24,777 nt of DNA from a virus: positions 1 to 24,777 of the IMG/VR virus record IMGVR_UViG_3300044237_000020. One strand, 5' to 3'. The first letter of the stretch is position 1. Every line of letters starts with the position of its first letter. Under the pieces are notes generated by a model, which did not search any database, was not told the DNA's origin, and worked only from the letters and a program-made list of their open reading frames with translations. Made by a program: the position numbers and the translations under genes. Of this stretch, positions 4,058-23,967 are shown piece after piece.

Positions 4058-4083
4058 AGGTGGGGAGTAATCCCCACCTTTTT
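4058..4083 (+). terminator. Rho-independent terminator after the capsid genes
   Basis: A 9-bp perfect stem (AGGTGGGGA/TCCCCACCT) closes on a GTAA loop, which is a GNRA tetraloop in RNA, and is followed by a T-run at 4079-4083. It lies 12 bases after the decoration gene stop, in the same place as the T7 late terminator after gene 10. Partial read-through must occur if the tail genes have no promoter of their own. Confidence 0.92.
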
Positions 4084-4284
4084 ATGAAAAAGATTCAAGA
4101 TTTAAAAACTGTACTACATTTTAAAAAAAATAATTATGTGTACAGATATGTTTTGGTAGACAGATTTAAACATACTTCTAAGTATCATTATGGATTTGAT
4201 GCCAAAGAAGAGAGAACAGAAGAAGAAATTTTTGCTTTAGAAAAAGATAGACATATAAGGCGAAAATATATAATAAGGAAATAG
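4084..4284 (+). CDS. Small basic protein with VYRYxLVD motif, 66 aa
   Basis: ATG at 4084 directly follows the terminator T-run; an in-frame GTG at 4060 is inside the terminator stem and is rejected as a start. The protein has LHF...YVYRYVLVD at residues 11-26 and an acidic then basic C-terminal helix (EERTEEEIFALEKDRHIRRKY). The same LHF/IHF and VYRYxLVD pattern occurs in the 72-aa protein at 21583, so the two look like diverged paralogues. No Shine-Dalgarno sequence is accessible: the purine-rich bases upstream are in the hairpin. Function unknown. Confidence 0.7.
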   Translation: MKKIQDLKTVLHFKKNNYVYRYVLVDRFKHTSKYHYGFDAKEERTEEEIFALEKDRHIRRKYIIRK

Positions 4285-13303: not shown

Positions 13304-15172
13304 ATGACAGTATCTTCAACTACAGTAAAAAATTCCTATTCAGGTAATTCAAGCACAACAGCTTTTGCCTATACCTTTAAGATTTTTGCGGACACAGATT
13401 TACAAGTAATTATCAGATCCTCTACAGGAACTGAGACAACCAAAACTCTAACCACGCACTACACAGTATCTGGTGCTGGAGATGCGTCAGGTGGTAATGT
13501 TACATTTACATCTGGGAATACTCCTGCAACTGGTGAAACAGTTGTTATTAGAAGAGGTGTTCCGCAAACTCAGGCAATAGATTATATTGCCAATGATCCA
13601 TTCCCTGCGGAATCACATGAAGAGGGTTTGGATCGTGCAACTATGACTATCCAACAGATGCAAGAGGAGCTAGATAGATCGTTTAAAGTTTCAAGAACAA
13701 ATACAATTACATCACCAGAATTTACAGATGATGCCACAACAAGAGCATCTAAAACTTTAGGATTTGATAGTTCTGGTAATTTAACAACAGTTGCTAATTT
13801 TTTACCTGCTGGTGGAGATAGTGCTGAATTTCAATATTCAACAACAACAAGTGATGCTGATCCTGGAGCAGGAAAATTTAGATTAAACCATGCAACAATT
13901 TCTAGTGCAACTGAAATGTACATTGATGACTTAGAATACAATGGTACAGATGTTTCAGCATGGGTACAATCATGGGATGATGTTGCAGGTAATGATACTA
14001 ATAGAGGAAGAATAAGAATTTCAAAAACAAATACATTAGATACTTGGATGGTATTTAAAGTAACTGGTGCTATTACAGATGCTAGTGGTTATACAAAAGT
14101 TTCTTTAGTTTATATTGATAATGCTGGTACTTTTGCTGATGATGATAGAGTATTTGTTTCTTTTGTAGCATCTGGAGAAGATGGTGCAATACCTGGATAT
14201 TACTACAAGTTTGATACAGGTACATCTGATGCAGACCCTGGTGCTGGAGAAATAGCATTTAATAATGGAACTTACGCATCTGTTACAGCAATTTATATTG
14301 ATGATGCTGATGCAAATGGAGTAACAACTTCTGCGGATGTTTTAACTTGGGATGATTCAACATCTACAATAAAAGGTTTCTTAATGATCTATGATATTAA
14401 TGATAGATCAACTTATGCAAGATTTAAAATTACAGGTGCTTCAACAGATGCTAGTGGCTACAATAAATTAGCTGTTACACATTTAGCATCTAACAATACT
14501 TTTAGTGCTGCTGACGAATTATCAGTACACTTTACTGCAAGTGGTAGTAAAGGAGATACAGGTTCAACAGGTGCTACAGGATCAACTGGTTCTACAGGTT
14601 CTACTGGAGCAAGTGGAACTAACTCACAACTTGCAATGACTTGGAATAATTCTACTTCTGATGCTGATCCAGGTGCAGGAAAAATTGCTTTTAACAATGG
14701 AACACTATCAAGTGTTTCAATTTTATATGTAGATGATGCAGATGATGCTAGTGCAGATATATCTGGTTATGTACAATCTTGGGATGATATATCTAATACA
14801 GTTGCAAGAGGAATTGTAACTGTAACTAAAGAAGGTACACCTTCTACTTATGCAATGTTTAAAGTATCTGGTGCTGTTACAGACGCATCAGGATATACAA
14901 AAGTTCCAGTAACTCATGTTGTTAGTTCAGGGTCATTTTCAAATTTAGATGGTGTTGGAGTTCACTTTAGTTATTCTGGAGCAGATGGTTCAGATGGAGA
15001 CATGACTAGCTTTACATTAGCTGGTTCTAGTGGCTCTAGTCAAACTATCACTAATGGTAATACAGTAACAATAGCAGCAGGGTCAGGGATTACGACTACT
15101 GGTGGTTCAACAGATACAGTAACGATAGCTGTAACAGATGATCCAACAGCTCTTGCAATCGCACTCGGCTAG
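13304..15172 (+). CDS. Tail fibre protein with T7 gp17-like N-terminus
   Basis: A 622-residue protein. Residues 1-about 130 (TVKNSYSGNSSTTAFAYTFK, TVVIRRGVPQTQAIDY, EEGLDRATMTIQQMQEELDR) are the virion-anchoring domain of T7-type fibres. Then come three copies of a beta module each beginning SDADPGAG at residues 183, 308 and 452, followed by a YIDD or YVDD strand and SWDD/TWDD. Between copies two and three lies a collagen-like stretch of eight Gly-X-Y triplets (414-437). The end (FTLAGSSGSSQTITNGNTVT, then TDTVTIAV) is a motif that usually continues into more fibre, so the tip may be supplied by the following genes. No chaperone-type autocleavage domain seen. The upstream 44-base gap holds only a weak ribosome site. 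Confidence 0.88.
   Translation: MTVSSTTVKNSYSGNSSTTAFAYTFKIFADTDLQVIIRSSTGTETTKTLTTHYTVSGAGDASGGNVTFTSGNTPATGETVVIRRGVPQTQAIDYIANDPFPAESHEEGLDRATMTIQQMQEELDRSFKVSRTNTITSPEFTDDATTRASKTLGFDSSGNLTTVANFLPAGGDSAEFQYSTTTSDADPGAGKFRLNHATISSATEMYIDDLEYNGTDVSAWVQSWDDVAGNDTNRGRIRISKTNTLDTWMVFKVTGAITDASGYTKVSLVYIDNAGTFADDDRVFVSFVASGEDGAIPGYYYKFDTGTSDADPGAGEIAFNNGTYASVTAIYIDDADANGVTTSADVLTWDDSTSTIKGFLMIYDINDRSTYARFKITGASTDASGYNKLAVTHLASNNTFSAADELSVHFTASGSKGDTGSTGATGSTGSTGSTGASGTNSQLAMTWNNSTSDADPGAGKIAFNNGTLSSVSILYVDDADDASADISGYVQSWDDISNTVARGIVTVTKEGTPSTYAMFKVSGAVTDASGYTKVPVTHVVSSGSFSNLDGVGVHFSYSGADGSDGDMTSFTLAGSSGSSQTITNGNTVTIAAGSGITTTGGSTDTVTIAVTDDPTALAIALG
13850..14999 (+). repeat. Three diverged tandem copies of the SDADPGAG fibre module
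   Basis: Copies begin at 13850, 14225 and 14657 and encode similar 110-120-residue units ending in a (F/V)xxSG(E/S/A)xG turn. Spacing is 125 and then 144 residues, the extra length being the collagen-like insert. Confidence 0.85.
14543..14614 (+). repeat. Collagen-like Gly-X-Y repeat
   Basis: Eight consecutive GXY triplets (GSK GDT GST GAT GST GST GST GAS) built from near-identical nine-base units of GGT/TCA/ACA type. Such repeats make trimeric stalks in fibres and can change length by recombination. Confidence 0.85.
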
Positions 15173-15199: not shown

Positions 15200-15565
15200 A
15201 TGGCAAACACTTTCAAGGCAATAACTTTTGCAGCAGAACCAGCTTCGGCAGGTACACCTTATGTTATGTATACAGCAGCAGGGAGTACAACTACTGTAGT
15301 TCTTGGCTTGATACTTGCTAACATACATACAACTGCGGTAACAGCAGAAGTAGAATTAGTTTCTACAACAGCAAACAGAGGTGGTGCTAACAATGTAACT
15401 AATGGTACATCAATGTTAGTAAAAGATGTGAGCATCCCTAGCGGATCTTCACTTGAGATTTTATCTGGCTCTAAAGTTATTTTAGAAGCTGGAGACAAAA
15501 TACAAATTGATTGTTCTGTCGCTGATAAACTTTCAGGTACATTATCAGTAATGGAAATTACATAG
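15200..15565 (+). CDS. Small beta-rich virion protein, probable fibre-associated
   Basis: A 121-residue protein beginning MANTFKAITFAAEPASAGTP, with alternating beta strands and the segments GLILANIHTTAVTAEVELV, VKDVSIPSGSSLEIL and LEAGDKIQIDC. Proteins of this shape are common near fibre genes of marine cyanophages and pelagiphages and look like jelly-roll or Ig-like structural parts. Two purine-rich ribosome sites (AAGGAGAA and AGGAGAT) precede the ATG. It stands between the long fibre and the small fibre array. The role is inferred; there is no enzyme motif. Confidence 0.65.
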   Translation: MANTFKAITFAAEPASAGTPYVMYTAAGSTTTVVLGLILANIHTTAVTAEVELVSTTANRGGANNVTNGTSMLVKDVSIPSGSSLEILSGSKVILEAGDKIQIDCSVADKLSGTLSVMEIT

Positions 15566-15574
15566 GAGTTTTAA

Positions 15575-16177
15575 TTGGCTTATATTGGAAACAAACCAGC
15601 TAACAAAGCAGTAGTTGCAAGTGATCTTGATCCAGCAGTTATTACTGGTCAAACAGCTTTAGCAGTTGAGCCAGCAGACACAGATGAATTTTTAATTAGT
15701 GATGCTGGAGTTTTAAAAAGATTAGATGCTAGTTTAATTGGTGGTGGTAAAGTTTTAAAAATAGAAGAACAGACAAATAATACAAGAGCAGCTTTATCCA
15801 CTTCTACAAGTAAGGTAACTATTTTGTCAGGTACATATACCAATGTTAAAGCAAGTAGCAAAGTTATAATAAACTGTTTAATTCCATCTATTGGAAATGG
15901 TGCTGCTGCCATGAATGTAGGAATTACATGGAATGGAACTGACCATGATGGAGTTGGCTCATTTGCTTATATAGGATCTGATAGTCAAACAATGATGGTT
16001 GTTTCAAAAAGTTTTGATTGTCCAGCATCAACTGGATCAATAAATTGGGTTTTGTTTTGGGAATCTCAAAATTCTCAAAATTCTTATCCAGTTAAAGTAA
16101 TAAATCCAAACAGTACAGATGATGGCAGACTTGCTCAATGTATATCAACAATAAATTTTATGGAGTACACAACATAA
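15575..16177 (+). CDS. Small tail fibre/adhesin protein (TTG start)
   Basis: A 200-residue protein starting MAYIGNKPANKAVVASDLDP. The start is TTG at 15575 with an AGGAG site 8 bases upstream; no ATG is available near, and the same MAYIG beginning with ATG in the gene at 16462 supports this choice. Residues 24-55 (TGQTALAVEPADTDEFLISD and AGVLKRLDASLI) form a linker shared with that gene. The rest is a beta-rich domain ending in IKFMEY-like strands, with a different sequence from the later paralogues. Probably a receptor-binding tip or fibre segment. Stop overlaps the next start (TAATG). Confidence 0.75.
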   Translation: MAYIGNKPANKAVVASDLDPAVITGQTALAVEPADTDEFLISDAGVLKRLDASLIGGGKVLKIEEQTNNTRAALSTSTSKVTILSGTYTNVKASSKVIINCLIPSIGNGAAAMNVGITWNGTDHDGVGSFAYIGSDSQTMMVVSKSFDCPASTGSINWVLFWESQNSQNSYPVKVINPNSTDDGRLAQCISTINFMEYTT

Positions 16178-16458
16178 TGGCAAATTTTGACAAAGCAGCA
16201 GTATATTTTAATTCAGAAAACTTTTTAGGTTATAAAGGAAATCCACCAACTAATGAAGCTGAATATAATTTAGTTAAAAATTCTATGTTTTCTAAAAATC
16301 CTCCAGCATGGAATGAAATTGAAACTAAAATACAAGAATATATTGATAAAGAATTAACTGATGAACAAAAAGAAACAGCTAAACAAACAGGCAAAGCTAA
16401 ACTAAAAGCTGGAGAACCCTTAACAGATGCTGAAATAACAGCATTATTTGGAGATTAA
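16177..16458 (+). CDS. Small helical protein, candidate fibre-assembly partner, 93 aa
   Basis: The ATG at 16177 overlaps the preceding stop as TAATG; an upstream in-frame ATG at 16138 would overlap more and is not needed. The protein is hydrophilic and helical: an N-terminal NFDKAAVYFNSENFLGYKGN part, then a Lys/Glu helix, ending KAKLKAGEPLTDAEITALFG. A similar end (KQKLKDLGLNDDEIKALTG) is found in the 66-aa product of 17429. Being interleaved with fibre genes, it could be a chaperone for the fibre before it. Function not established. Confidence 0.62.
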   Translation: MANFDKAAVYFNSENFLGYKGNPPTNEAEYNLVKNSMFSKNPPAWNEIETKIQEYIDKELTDEQKETAKQTGKAKLKAGEPLTDAEITALFGD

Positions 16459-16461
16459 TTT

Positions 16462-17427
16462 ATGGCATATATAGGTAGAGAACCACAAATAGGAAACTTT
16501 CAAGTTTGTGATGCTATATCAGTAGTCAATGGTCAAGCTGCATACACTATGCAAGTAGGTGGTGCTAATGTTTCACCTGAAACTGCAAACCACATGATTG
16601 TATCTTTAAATGGTATTATACAAGCACCTGGAACTTCTTATACTGTAGCAGGATCTACAATTACCTTTGCTTCTAACCTTGCAACAGGTGATGTTATAAA
16701 TTTTATTCATATACTAGGATCAGTTCTTGATCTTGGTGTACCAAGCGATGGAACTGTAACAGCAGCTAAAGTTGCTAATGATTTAATTTCTGGAAAAACT
16801 GCTTTAGCAACAGCTCCAGCAGATACAGATGAGTTTTTAGTTTCGGATGCTGGAACACTTAAAAGAGTTGATTACAGTTTAATAAAAAGTGGAGGTGTAG
16901 CTCTTTTAAACACAACTTCTGTTTCATCTGGTTCAAGTTCTATTTCTATTGATGGACATTTTACCACTGATTATAAAACTTATATATTTGAATATTACGA
17001 TTTTGAAATGACATCAGGTGCAAGTGGAGAACCAAGATTAAGATTTAATTTTAGTGGTAGTGCATATACAACTGCTAATTACCGATCAATTTCAGGTGGT
17101 ACTCAAACAGCTTCAGATGGCAATGGAGCTGATACTAATTTTGCAGCATGGAATACAAATTATATATCAATGAATACTGGATATAATTATCCTGAAGATG
17201 GAGATGCTGGAGCAGTAGGAAGAATATATTTATATAATCCACTAAGCACATCTAATTATAAAACAGCAGAAGGAACAGCTAGTTATTTAAGTGCAAGTAA
17301 TGTTGTAGTTTCTCATTTTGCTGGAACTTTAGTTGCTAATTCAGGAACAGCTTGTTCAGGAATTACTCTTTATCCAAATGCTGGAACATTTGCGGCTGGA
17401 ACAATAAGACTATTAGGAGTTAAATAA
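16462..17427 (+). CDS. Tail fibre/adhesin protein, 321 aa
   Basis: Three parts can be seen: residues 1-100, an N-terminal fibre domain common in marine phages (NGQAAYTMQVGG, HMIVSLNGIIQAPGTSYTV, GSTITFASNLATGDVINFIH); residues 110-141, the linker GKTALATAPADTDEFLVSDA plus GTLKRVDYSLI shared with the 15575 product; and residues 145-321, a beta-sandwich related to the C-terminal domains of the next three fibre proteins (ISIDGHFTTDYKTYIFEYYD, then FAAGTIRLLGVK at the end). It therefore bridges both halves of the array. Likely attached to the virion through the N-terminal domain and binding the host surface through the C-terminal one. Confidence 0.82.
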   Translation: MAYIGREPQIGNFQVCDAISVVNGQAAYTMQVGGANVSPETANHMIVSLNGIIQAPGTSYTVAGSTITFASNLATGDVINFIHILGSVLDLGVPSDGTVTAAKVANDLISGKTALATAPADTDEFLVSDAGTLKRVDYSLIKSGGVALLNTTSVSSGSSSISIDGHFTTDYKTYIFEYYDFEMTSGASGEPRLRFNFSGSAYTTANYRSISGGTQTASDGNGADTNFAAWNTNYISMNTGYNYPEDGDAGAVGRIYLYNPLSTSNYKTAEGTASYLSASNVVVSHFAGTLVANSGTACSGITLYPNAGTFAAGTIRLLGVK

Positions 17428-17428
17428 T

Positions 17429-17629
17429 ATGACATTAAAAATACAAATAAATAATGAAGTAAGAGATATGACTTCTGAAGAAGAAAATCAACATAATGCT
17501 GATTTGCAACAAACAATAAAAGATAAAGAAAAAATAATTGCTAAAGAAAATGACAAAGCATCTGGCAAACAAAAGTTAAAAGATCTTGGTTTAAATGACG
17601 ATGAAATTAAAGCATTGACTGGAGCTTAA
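17429..17629 (+). CDS. Small helical protein, candidate fibre-assembly partner, 66 aa
   Basis: One base after the preceding fibre gene. The sequence starts MTLKIQINNEVRDMTSEEEN, continues as a strongly charged Lys/Glu helix and ends KDLGLNDDEIKALTGA. The RDMTSEEE start resembles the VPFTAEEEAQW start of the 19577 product, and the end resembles that of the 16177 product, so it may be a short member of a fibre-assembly chaperone group. Inferred only. Confidence 0.55.
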   Translation: MTLKIQINNEVRDMTSEEENQHNADLQQTIKDKEKIIAKENDKASGKQKLKDLGLNDDEIKALTGA

Positions 17630-17631
17630 TT

Positions 17632-17727
17632 ATGGCAATCAAAGTAGCCAATAACAATTCCTTGTCTGCAATTACAGCTTCGTTAAACAAGTTTAACAAA
17701 GAAGTGGAGATCCTGTTATGGCTATAA
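17632..17727 (+). pseudogene. 31-codon stub copying the N-terminus of the next fibre gene
   Basis: ATG at 17632, with GGAG 7 bases upstream, opens a frame whose first 16 residues (MAIKVANNNSLSAITA) differ at one position from the first 16 of the 17718 product (MAINVANNNSLSAITA). The frame then departs, passes a 16-base inverted repeat (17682-17697) and stops at 17725-17727 inside the next gene's third codon. The bases differ mainly at silent sites, so the copy is old and was under protein selection for some time. It is either the remains of a deleted paralogue or a short leader peptide. Confidence 0.7.
17682..17697. repeat. Inverted repeat GTTAAAC-AA-GTTTAAC
   Basis: Two perfect 7-base arms separated by two bases, within the fibre stub and just upstream of the next fibre start. 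Without a T-run it is not a terminator. Confidence 0.6.
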
Positions 17728-18320
17728 ATGTAGCAAACAATAATTCATTATCAGCCATAACTGCTTTACCAGCAGCAGTTTCTGGTGGTGCTATGACTTT
17801 ATTAGAAACACAAACTGCATCAAGTTCATCTGCAATATCCTTTACATCAGGCATAGATTCTACTTATAAAGAATATATTTTTAAATTTTATAATATACAC
17901 CCATCAGCAAACGCATCTTTTGGAATAAATTTTTCTGTTGATGGTGGATCAAATTATAATGTTGCAAAAACAACCACATCTTTTTATGCTTTTCAAAATG
18001 AATCAGGTAGTTCTACAACACTACAATACAGAACAGCTTATGATCTAGCACAAGGAACAGGATCAGCACCTTTAGGTGGAGATACAATGACAACTCTTGA
18101 TGATGAGTGTGGTACAGGTTCTTTACATTTATTTGATCCATCTAACACTACTTTTGTAAAACATTTTATTTCAAGATTTACACCAATGTATCCAAGTTAT
18201 GCAATGGACGGATTTACTGCTGGGTACGGAAATACGACATCAGCAATTAATGCAGTACAATTTGCTATGTCGTCAGGCAACATAGATAGTGGAGTAATAA
18301 AATTATATGGCGTTAGTTAA
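17718..18320 (+). CDS. Small tail fibre/adhesin paralogue 1, 200 aa
   Basis: First of three tandem paralogues. The short N-terminal tag (MAINVANNNSLSAITALPAA, then VSGGAMTLL) is followed by TASSSSAISFTSGIDSTYKE, YIFKFYNIHP, a variable centre, and the shared end (FVKHFISRF, NTTSAINAVQF, MSSGNIDSGVIKLYGVS). All strands are beta; there is no membrane segment. The pattern suggests a compact receptor-binding domain whose core is conserved and whose central loops vary. GGAG 8 bases before the ATG. The next paralogue starts 14 bases before this stop. Confidence 0.78.
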   Translation: MAINVANNNSLSAITALPAAVSGGAMTLLETQTASSSSAISFTSGIDSTYKEYIFKFYNIHPSANASFGINFSVDGGSNYNVAKTTTSFYAFQNESGSSTTLQYRTAYDLAQGTGSAPLGGDTMTTLDDECGTGSLHLFDPSNTTFVKHFISRFTPMYPSYAMDGFTAGYGNTTSAINAVQFAMSSGNIDSGVIKLYGVS

Positions 18321-18933
18321 GTATAACAATAATAGCATAAGTGATGTTACAGCTTTGGCTGGTGTGCCTTCTGGTGCTATGACTTTAATTAAAGAACAAA
18401 CAGCATCCTCAAGTTCTACTATTAGCTTTGTTGATGGTACATCAGATGTAGTTTTGGATAGCACATATCCTATTTATCTATTCAAATGGATTAGCTGTCA
18501 TCCAGAAACTAATAATGTTAAATTTCAATTTCAAGCAAACGCATCTGGAGGTAGTGGTTATAATGAAACAATAACTTCTACTGCTTTTAATGCCACTGCT
18601 GATGAGGCTAACTCAGATGCTGGTTTAAACTATCAAGCTGGTAGAGATCAAGCTCAAGGAACAAGCTATCAAGATTTAACTGCTTTTAATGGAAATCAAA
18701 ATGATAGTGCTACTTCTGGAGAACTTTGGTTATTTAATCCATCATCAACTACCTATGTTAAGCATTTTATTAGTAGATCACAGCAAATGAATCCAGAGGC
18801 ACCTTTTTCAACTGATGACTACAGAGGTGGATATTTTAACACTACTTCAGCTATTGACGAAATACAATTTAAAATGTCATCTGGCGATATTGATGCTGGC
18901 ACAATAAAACTCTATGGAATTAAGGATAGTTAA
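18307..18933 (+). CDS. Small tail fibre/adhesin paralogue 2, 208 aa
   Basis: Second tandem paralogue: MALVKYNNNSISDVTALAG, then PSGAMTLIKEQTASSSSTIS, a short insertion relative to its neighbours (VDGTSDVVLDSTYPIYLFKW), DQAQGTSYQDLTAF in the middle, and the conserved end YVKHFISRS, GGYFNTTSAIDEIQFKMSSG and TIKLYGIK. It overlaps the previous gene by 14 bases and its own stop overlaps the next start (TAATG), so the three genes are translationally coupled. Same structural expectation as its neighbours; specificity unknown. Confidence 0.78.
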   Translation: MALVKYNNNSISDVTALAGVPSGAMTLIKEQTASSSSTISFVDGTSDVVLDSTYPIYLFKWISCHPETNNVKFQFQANASGGSGYNETITSTAFNATADEANSDAGLNYQAGRDQAQGTSYQDLTAFNGNQNDSATSGELWLFNPSSTTYVKHFISRSQQMNPEAPFSTDDYRGGYFNTTSAIDEIQFKMSSGDIDAGTIKLYGIKDS

Positions 18934-19550
18934 TGGCTTTAGTTAAATTAAATAATAGAGGTGTAAGATCAGCTACTGCTTTTGGAAGTATTACTGGATT
19001 AGGTAGTATGACATTTTTATCTAAACAAACAGCATCAAGTTCATCTACAATTAGTTTTACTTCTGGAATTGATAGCACATATAAGGAATACTTATTTACT
19101 TTTAATAATATTCATCCATCGGCTGATAGTGCAGAATTTAGTTTTCAAGGTGATACAGGAACAAATACAAGTTACAATCAAACTATAACTTCTACATTTT
19201 TTCATGCTGCACATAGACAGGATGCAGCAGTTACTGAGCTTGCTTATGATACAGGTCAAGATTTAGCTCAAAGCACAAACTTTCAAAGACTTGCTTATAA
19301 TATTGATAATGGAAATGAAGATAATCTTTCAGGATATTTACATTTATTCAATCCAAGTTCTAGCACATTTGTTAAACATTTTATAGCTACTTGTAATTAT
19401 ACTTATGATGGAGATGCAAATGAACAATATAGTTATAATACTTTTGTAGGTGGATATTTTAATACAACAACTGCAATTACAAGATTACAGTTTAAATTTG
19501 AAAGTGGGAATATAGACGCTGGAGATATTTGCCTTTATGGTATTGCATAA
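18933..19550 (+). CDS. Small tail fibre/adhesin paralogue 3, 205 aa
   Basis: Third tandem paralogue: MALVKLNNRGVRSATAFGSI, SMTFLSKQTASSSSTISFTS, GIDSTYKEYLFTFNNIHPSA, the middle DLAQSTNFQRLAYNID, and the end FVKHFIATCNYTYDGD, GGYFNTTTAITRLQFKFESG and ICLYGIA. In the conserved parts it is closer to paralogue 1 in some segments (GIDSTYKEY) and to paralogue 2 in others (MALVK, GGYFNTT), as expected after recombination among copies. Followed by a 26-base gap with an AGGAG ribosome site for the chaperone-like gene. Confidence 0.78.
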   Translation: MALVKLNNRGVRSATAFGSITGLGSMTFLSKQTASSSSTISFTSGIDSTYKEYLFTFNNIHPSADSAEFSFQGDTGTNTSYNQTITSTFFHAAHRQDAAVTELAYDTGQDLAQSTNFQRLAYNIDNGNEDNLSGYLHLFNPSSSTFVKHFIATCNYTYDGDANEQYSYNTFVGGYFNTTTAITRLQFKFESGNIDAGDICLYGIA

Positions 19551-19576
19551 CAATTAACAAAGGAGTATAGATAATT

Positions 19577-19867
19577 ATGGCTAGACATCATTTAATAAAT
19601 GGGAACATAGTTCCTTTCACAGCAGAAGAAGAAGCACAATGGGATGCTAATGAAGCAGCTCATGCTGATGGTGCGTTTGATCGTGCTATTGCAAATTTAA
19701 GACAAGATAGAAATAGAAAATTAGCTGAAACAGATTTTTATGCTTTATCAGATGTAACTATGTCAGAGGAAATGACTACATATCGTCAAGAACTTCGTGA
19801 TTTAACAAATGGTTTATCTACTGTTGAAGATGTAAATGCTGTTGTATTTCCAACTAAACCATCATAA
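19577..19867 (+). CDS. Tail fibre assembly chaperone-like protein
   Basis: A 96-residue protein resembling the phage tail assembly chaperone group found after fibre genes. Features: VPFTAEEEAQWDANEAAHA near the N-terminus, a basic helix (LRQDRNRKLAETDFYALSD, 41-59), YRQELRDLTNG at 69-79 and the closing FPTKP (91-95). The R-x-x-R-N-x-x-L-A-x-(S/T)-D-(W/F) and YRQxLRDL...(W/F)PxKP pattern is typical of that group. Good AGGAG ribosome site 12 bases before the ATG. It probably helps one or more of the upstream fibres to fold or trimerise. Stop overlaps next start (TAATG). Confidence 0.75.
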   Translation: MARHHLINGNIVPFTAEEEAQWDANEAAHADGAFDRAIANLRQDRNRKLAETDFYALSDVTMSEEMTTYRQELRDLTNGLSTVEDVNAVVFPTKPS

Positions 19868-21485: not shown

Positions 21486-21586
21486 TGAAAAGAAAAAATA
21501 TTATAGCAAAAGATTTAATGTCAAAAAAATATAAACCAAGAATAGTAAAACCTAAAAAAGGCAAGGGTAGTTTTAAAAGAAAATGA
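21485..21586 (+). CDS. Basic microprotein, 33 aa
   Basis: ATG overlaps the preceding stop (TAATG) and its own stop overlaps the next start (ATGA). MKRKNIIAKDLMSKKYKPRI is followed by VKPKKGKGSFKRK: nearly half Lys/Arg. I recall similar AKDL...KKGKGSFKRK ORFs in pelagiphage genomes. Likely nucleic-acid contacting; function unknown. Confidence 0.68.
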   Translation: MKRKNIIAKDLMSKKYKPRIVKPKKGKGSFKRK

Positions 21587-21801
21587 CATTAGCTGCATTT
21601 GATCCAAGACTAATTGAACAATACGAAGATCCTAGATACTTAATACATTTTCAATGGAGAGATAATACTAAAGTTTATAGATACGCATTAGTTGATATTA
21701 TAAAACAAGAAGATATTGAACCAACTTGTAAACAAAAACAAGATGAAATAGGATTAAGTCAAAAAGAAATTTGGCAGAAAAAATATAATGGCTCGTGTTA
21801 A
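21583..21801 (+). CDS. Small protein with VYRYxLVD motif, 72 aa
   Basis: ATGA overlap with the gene before. IHFQWRDNTKVYRYALVDII at residues 21-40 parallels LHFKKNNYVYRYVLVDRF in the 66-aa product of 4084, and both end with a charged helix. No membrane segment or catalytic motif. The pair is probably paralogous; function unknown. Its end overlaps the next gene by 14 bases. Confidence 0.68.
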   Translation: MTLAAFDPRLIEQYEDPRYLIHFQWRDNTKVYRYALVDIIKQEDIEPTCKQKQDEIGLSQKEIWQKKYNGSC

Positions 21802-23334: not shown

Positions 23335-23434
23335 ATATTTTTTTTAATATTAAATAACAATCAGCACAAAAATATATTTTATTTTCTATAATTATAGCAG
23401 CTCTTTTACATTTAGAGCATTTGTGCTTTGGCAT
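23324..23434 (-). CDS. Double-CxxC zinc-ribbon microprotein, 36 aa
   Basis: Minus-strand ATG at 23434-23432 overlaps the stop of the DnaA-like gene (TAATG). MPKHKCSKCKRAAIIIENKI followed by YFCADCYLILKKIFTS has two CxxC knuckles 14 residues apart around a beta turn, a minimal zinc ribbon. It is the last gene of the minus operon and its stop lies inside the last codons of the convergent plus-strand gene. Possibly a DNA-binding or adaptor protein. Confidence 0.72.
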   Translation of the reverse strand: MPKHKCSKCKRAAIIIENKIYFCADCYLILKKIFTS

Positions 23435-23967
23435 TATGCTATAAGTTCTTGAAACTCTTGCCAAATAGTTTGCTCATCACTCCAGAATCTTTTTCTATTT
23501 TGTTTCATTTCTATTGAATGTAAAACTGTAGTATGATCTTGTCCAAAAATTTTTCCTATCTCTGTTAAGCTCATCTTATATTTTTCACTTAATACATTAT
23601 GAATAATATTTCTGGATCGCACAATATCTGTAGTTCTAGTCTTGGTAAATAATTCTTTCTTACTTACTTCATACTTAATACAAACCTTATTAATTATGGA
23701 GTCTATCTCTGTTTGTCTAGGTTTTCTAAATTGATAACCAACAATCTTTCTTTCTGTATTGATAGGCACTATGTGTGTTTGTTTTATTTCACTAATATGA
23801 TTTGACATTTTTTGTTGTGCTAACTCAAAACCTTTTTTAAATCCTGCTTCATATAATTTATATTCTCTATCTGATAATAAATAAAAAGCTATCTTATGCT
23901 TGTAGATAAAATCGTTGTTATTTATTTTTTTAATATGTTTTTGAAATTCTTGTTTTGCTAAAGACAT
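23434..23967 (-). CDS. Stand-alone DnaA domain IV-like DNA-binding protein
   Basis: 177 residues. The C-terminal 95 residues match DnaA domain IV: a helix with IINKVCIKYEVSKKELFTKT (91-110), the basic loop RTTDIVRSRN (111-120), the helix NVLSEKYKMSLTEIGKIFG (124-142) and the signature QDHTTVLHSIE (143-153). In DnaA this domain binds the DnaA box through the basic loop and the DHTTV helix. The N-terminal 80 residues are helical (LSDREYKLYEAGFKKGFELA) and carry no P-loop, so there is no AAA+ ATPase. It could compete with or redirect host DnaA, or regulate phage genes. Ribosome site AGGGGG lies before ATTTATG. Confidence 0.88.
   Translation of the reverse strand: MSLAKQEFQKHIKKINNNDFIYKHKIAFYLLSDREYKLYEAGFKKGFELAQQKMSNHISEIKQTHIVPINTERKIVGYQFRKPRQTEIDSIINKVCIKYEVSKKELFTKTRTTDIVRSRNIIHNVLSEKYKMSLTEIGKIFGQDHTTVLHSIEMKQNRKRFWSDEQTIWQEFQELIA

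Follow-up and report, generated by a model that had tools for sequence, protein, structure and literature searches.

The window analysed here is the whole 24.8 kb (24,777-nucleotide) stretch of IMG/VR virus record IMGVR_UViG_3300044237_000020. It is an HTVC010P-type pelagiphage, ~90% identical in pieces to HTVC010P, with pieces that span 55% of the window. The fibre-gene block lies beyond the internal virion proteins and a T7-type fibre; it consists of gene 15575, gene 16462 and a triad of adjacent paralogues (17718, 18307 and 18933), with a chaperone gene (19577) behind it. Genes are named by their first position, and their coordinates are collected in Table 1. The three genes of the triad very probably encode a single fibre, to which each contributes one chain of an obligate 1:1:1 heterotrimer. 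The coordinates of the four reading frames from 16462, 17718, 18307 and 18933, the 14-base overlap and the TAATG junction, all described in a first-pass annotation of this DNA, were confirmed.

The products of 17718, 18307 and 18933 (200-208 residues) are full-length paralogues of 45-48% identity (E 1e-42 to 1e-53). All three match phrog_14820, a PHROG of unknown function, at E < 1e-74 (E 3e-78, 1e-79 and 2e-75 over residues 1-200, 1-206 and 1-205, respectively), while a Pfam scan places no Pfam family above cut-off in any of them. The C-terminal domain of the 16462 product is distantly related to these chains, as indicated by BLASTP against paralogue 2 (E about 0.002-0.004), by comparison with triad relatives (E 2e-5 to 7e-4) and by the family hidden Markov model (HMM; 26 bits). 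The 15575 protein has no match to the triad knob and has in common with 16462 only the linker module 'TALAxxPADTDEFLxSDAGxLKRxD'. An array of four equal paralogues is ruled out: 16462 is a single-gene fibre that has the same knob but is only distantly related, and the likeness of 15575 is limited to its linker. The array instead pairs the triad, which forms the tight unit, with a single knob-sharing fibre (16462). The first-pass count of at least four proteins with the same C-terminal domain holds for the three paralogues and the distant 16462, but not in the sense of four equal members.

Copy number was followed across loci gathered by six IMG/VR scans with different family members which, together with reference phages, gave 337 sequences; arrays were counted with the family HMM, and only complete, de-duplicated arrays were retained. 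Three genes are found in 168 of these arrays, six in 24 and four in 2, with none of 1, 2 or 5. The three adjacent paralogues are always kept together in these arrays, as expected of a three-gene heterotrimeric fibre, and random duplication and loss would not produce counts in multiples of three. The six-gene arrays are two triads that differ in N-terminal class. At one locus (L244, 11-6361), nine family genes form three triads (classes C, B and A), with a MAYIG fibre (the type of gene 16462) between C and B. Loci with more than one class are always ordered C, B, A (CA 25, BA 14, CBA 3 and CB 1). Overlaps of 1 or 14 bases join the genes in most arrays, which fits coupled translation.

The chains of the triad are distinct conserved types, and every position has its own N-terminus and its own C-terminus. 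Past the final YG, two residues follow at position 1 (239/258), four at position 2 (211/258) and two at position 3 (258/258). Typing by HMM only is blurred by head exchange; thus, chains were typed by base sites learned in class A triads. By this typing, class A triads read 1,2,3 in 168/171, as do class C triads in 40/49 with the sites from class A. Class B triads read 3,2,1 in 23/27, such that the order is reversed and the type complement is intact. The N-termini within a triad are of one class, with a similarity of 0.445 versus 0.241 in shuffled triads (shuffle maximum 0.285).

Certain relatives carry a single gene in the triad slot. In HTVC203P, HTVC035P and HTVC106P, this gene has the generic N-terminus MAIIKPNNNT(L/I)SAITALP, which resembles the anchors of the triad, and in a scan for the N-terminus MAIIKPNNN the count is one gene per complete locus without exception (59/59). 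A slot that holds either one gene or three matches the needs of a homotrimer and a heterotrimer, respectively.

Residues also covary between the chains in a directional manner. In a mean-field direct coupling analysis (DCA) of 258 triads, the top inter-gene coupling outside the N-terminal anchors is of residue 56 (chain n) with residue 60 (chain n+1), with z of 12.9 for 1->2 and 14.7 for 2->3, and a sum of 0.6 for the reversed orientation. In class A, the 56(1)-60(2) pair is EK in 103 and SE in 26 triads, 56(2)-60(3) is mostly IT, IY or VI, and 56(3)-60(1) is EK in 150. Five pairs (56-60, 56-199, 116-98, 56-201 and 55-30) surpass the largest asymmetry of three within-class shuffles, and in all five it is residue 55, 56 or 116 that resides on the n side. 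Residue 35 couples to itself at all three interfaces (class A), as expected near the axis. A control based on 129 phylogenetically independent sister pairs retains the direction of leading couplings, with 56->60 at p=0.0023 (1->2) and 0.01 (2->3) versus 0.29 and 0.2 when reversed, and 116->98 at p=0.0034 (2->3) and 0.0036 (3->1) versus 0.38 and 0.75 when reversed.

The first-pass annotation suggested that the array could be a source of several alternative receptor specificities, which would correspond to three homotrimeric fibres, distinct from one another but with related docking sites. Multi-fibre podoviruses are known, the heads are variable and exchanged, and the common fold and N-terminal class of the three chains would permit competition for one site. 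Three homotrimers are, however, unlikely when set against the fixed multiples of three with no one- or two-gene arrays, the single gene in the same slot of relatives, the full set of the three base types in each triad (also where the order is reversed) and the directional covariation between genes. The copy rule, chain types, single-gene slot and covariation all fit one heterotrimer better, and the claim of several specificities is thus not supported.

The AlphaFold2 model of chain 2 is all-beta, with a predicted local distance difference test score (pLDDT) of 88.9 and a predicted template modelling score (pTM) of 0.83. Against the PDB, the triad chains have no confident match (Foldseek best E 1.4e-3, template modelling (TM) score 0.31; no sequence match). 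The model of 16462 has a mean pLDDT of 71, with blocks from residue 141 on mostly at 73-93, and has largely the same neighbours in the Foldseek viral library as the triad knob. Unrelated folds, which the first pass had named as evidence that would overturn its view, were not found. Its description of receptor-tip-like beta domains with variable middles and translational coupling is likewise borne out. Among the knob relatives in the viral library are C-terminal portions of long fibres that bear Stf or collagen-like repeats. These relatives, and the position of the genes within the tail-fibre block with a tail chaperone downstream, make it very unlikely that the triad forms a heterotrimeric head decoration or neck appendage and not a receptor-binding tail fibre.

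The base and head of the chains differ in their history. In class A triads, the type of the nearest neighbour was scored in a sliding window after exclusion of close relatives. Nearest neighbours agree in type at 97-99% over residues 1-71, at 31-50% (chance 33%) in windows that start anywhere from residue 66 to residue 162, and at 74% over residues 175-204. Thus, residues 1-71 and the last strand form a type-locked base, in contrast to a head (residues about 66-192) that is shuffled between types population-wide. The nearest neighbour is from the own array at a rate of 0.000-0.008 per window versus a random expectation of 0.004. As same-array neighbours do not rise above this chance rate, exchange occurs through the population, and gene conversion within the array is ruled out as the main process. 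Of the exchange among copies proposed at first pass, the observation of different segments common to different neighbours stands, but there is no within-array excess, and exchange is population-wide and of the head only. All three genes are under constraint (ratios of nonsynonymous to synonymous substitution, dN/dS, of 0.48, 0.40 and 0.58 in seven close pairs) and are open in every complete array. Free decay of the extra copies was looked for across the complete arrays and not seen; it is ruled out by the intact frames and the constraint. While head exchange between types across the population would suit a recombination reservoir, in which a single copy serves as the tip and the rest only donate head segments, this explanation is highly improbable as same-array nearest neighbours are not in excess, all three genes are open and constrained, and donor copies would be expected to vary in number.

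In the heterotrimer proposed here, each chain would include a short N-terminal anchor, a type-locked base (up to about residue 71, together with the C-terminal strand) and, as a variable part, a beta-sandwich head, which is presumed to be the host-contacting part. The type-locked bases would pack against the other two types in the fixed cyclic order 1->2->3->1, and the head segments would be exchangeable because only the base must match. The overlapping start and stop codons may provide coupled, near-equimolar translation, while the chaperone encoded just downstream may aid folding. The docking slot is presumably determined by the N-terminal class (A, B, C and others), such that a virion may bear one, two or three fibres (3, 6 or 9 genes). 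Recombination would swap head segments between types and phages and, thus, may generate combinatorial tips.

A number of points weigh against a heterotrimer. The structure predictions are of monomers only. The loci stem from pattern searches that retain the best matches; thus, the array counts are no unbiased census. The two arrays of four (L115 and L235) depart from multiples of three. Both are readable as 3+1 and were set aside as counter-examples to the triad rule: L235 has a class B triad, then a single gene and then the chaperone, while L115 has one gene ahead of a triad whose first member has an unusual N-terminus. The base sites were learned in class A, hence the class A figure of 168/171 is not independent, and the types of classes D and E are resolved in part only. 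The DCA is underdetermined at its depth of 245 effective sequences, the 56/60 pair at the 3->1 interface is almost invariant (complementarity with little covariation), and low variance partly limits what the reversed control at 56/60 can show. When the top couplings were tested globally for replication in one orientation at all three interfaces, the result was not significant. Thus, the covariation supports but does not prove the heterotrimer, and it is the leading pairs, together with the sister-pair control, that carry the weight.

The triad is present in HTVC010P, HTVC034P and HTVC019P, the last of which is filed under Autographiviridae. The corresponding products (HTVC010P gp30-32, HTVC034P gp37-35 and HTVC019P gp45-47) are of the same three genes as in the window, with the same order and N- and C-terminal signatures, and the phrog_14820 genes of these phages are annotated as hypothetical only. 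Triads are also found on a contig that encodes a siphovirus-type central tail fibre J (L099, 3634-5787), and a triad on another contig (L142) accompanies a podovirus-type internal virion protein. Based on these contexts, the triad occurs in more than one phage group, including outside podoviruses. In the open-access literature, no proposal was found of pelagiphage heterotrimers or of these three genes as one unit.

Complement C1q is a heterotrimer of three related chains (A, B and C) that have individual bases and globular heads. C1q is likened to the pelagiphage triad by analogy only; other pelagiphage fibres have been called C1q-like. Closer in gene arrangement, the virophage DSLV2 has three consecutive paralogous tail protein genes (about 200-250 residues) that form position-specific clades, with the same three in relatives (PMC12724248, J Virol 2025). 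The DSLV2 tail proteins co-purify, which its authors read as a 1:1:1 heterotrimeric fibre (PMC12724248). The pelagiphage triad is similar in its three consecutive paralogues of position-specific type. By contrast, DSLV2 has a collar/gp37-type domain (PF07484), for which the triad chains have no match in a Pfam scan at E up to 1, and a virophage capsid context, whereas the pelagiphage triad sits in a tail-fibre block, occurs as up to three triads and undergoes head shuffling. In mycobacteriophage Mysterious, a heterotrimer of gp35, gp36 and gp37 is seen by cryo-electron microscopy (PMC13252515, preprint 2026), with gp35 having an N-terminal arm and a beta-sandwich core (at least 205 residues; PMC13252515). 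Mysterious resembles the pelagiphage triad in that the chains come from a tailed phage and from three genes with consecutive numbers, but differs in that the complex is a siphophage baseplate accessory protein of an actinobacterial phage. DSLV2 and Mysterious are precedents that three-gene heterotrimers exist, and the triad is not filed as a member of either.

Phage receptor-binding fibres are usually taken to be homotrimers, so that three adjacent tip genes are read as three specificities. On balance, it seems probable that some very abundant ocean phages use obligate heterotrimeric receptor-binding fibres with a locked base and interchangeable heads, at up to three per virion, as a combinatorial recognition system with three independently swappable tips on each fibre. 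If a triad is one heterotrimer, 1:1:1 complexes would be needed when these pelagiphages are annotated, their structures predicted and their host ranges inferred, and recognition of SAR11 by pelagiphages would be directly testable with three small co-expressed proteins. Host-recognition genes of marine phages are hypervariable (PMC3909814; PMC10504331). Free recombination of a hypervariable tip, with assembly left intact, would be explained by a locked base and exchangeable heads.

Table 1. Genes of the triad and its neighbourhood in the window.
Position	Strand	Feature	Basis of role
13304..15172	+	T7-type tail fibre (phrog_13893), an upstream neighbour outside the triad; has internal repeats and a collagen-like stretch	
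15200..15565	+	Small protein, neighbour; relatives annotated as virion structural protein	
15575..16177	+	Single-gene fibre, TTG start; has nothing but the linker TALAxxPADTDEFLxSDAG in common with 16462; no triad-knob match	
16138..16458	+	Small protein after the 15575 fibre; small putative fibre-accessory proteins occupy the same place in relatives	judged from position
16462..17427	+	Single-gene fibre: MAYIG anchor (phrog_18673), linker and C-terminal knob with fold as in the triad	
17429..17629	+	Small protein following the 16462 fibre	judged from position
17718..18320	+	Triad chain type 1; anchor MAINVANNNSLSAIT, tail IKLYGVS	
18307..18933	+	Triad chain type 2; anchor MALVKYNNNSIS, tail IKLYGIKDS; overlaps chain 1 by 14 bases	
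18933..19550	+	Triad chain type 3; anchor MALVKLNNRGVRSATAFGS, tail DICLYGIA; TAATG junction	
19577..19867	+	Tail assembly chaperone (PF16778, phrog_4912)	

The chaperone gene of the window passes the Pfam gathering score for PF16778 (37.4 bits versus a cut-off of 26.6), and an APC-like gene is located after 165/194 complete arrays. In HTVC010P, annotated gp25 (L001, 6001-6654 plus upstream) apparently starts within a longer TTG-start frame (LAYIGNKPANKAVV...) that matches window gene 15575, and the annotated start of gp25 is probably too far downstream. The MAYIG fibre of HTVC010P is apparently split into gp27 and gp28 (L001, 6951-7774), with frames of 216 and 45 amino acids that resemble the outcome of a frameshift or sequencing error. 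Elsewhere in the window, the small proteins encoded at 4060-4284 and 21583-21801 both include a 'VYRYxLVD' motif and may be paralogues, and the protein encoded at 23434-23967 (-) stands where HTVC034P has its DnaA-like replication initiation gene.

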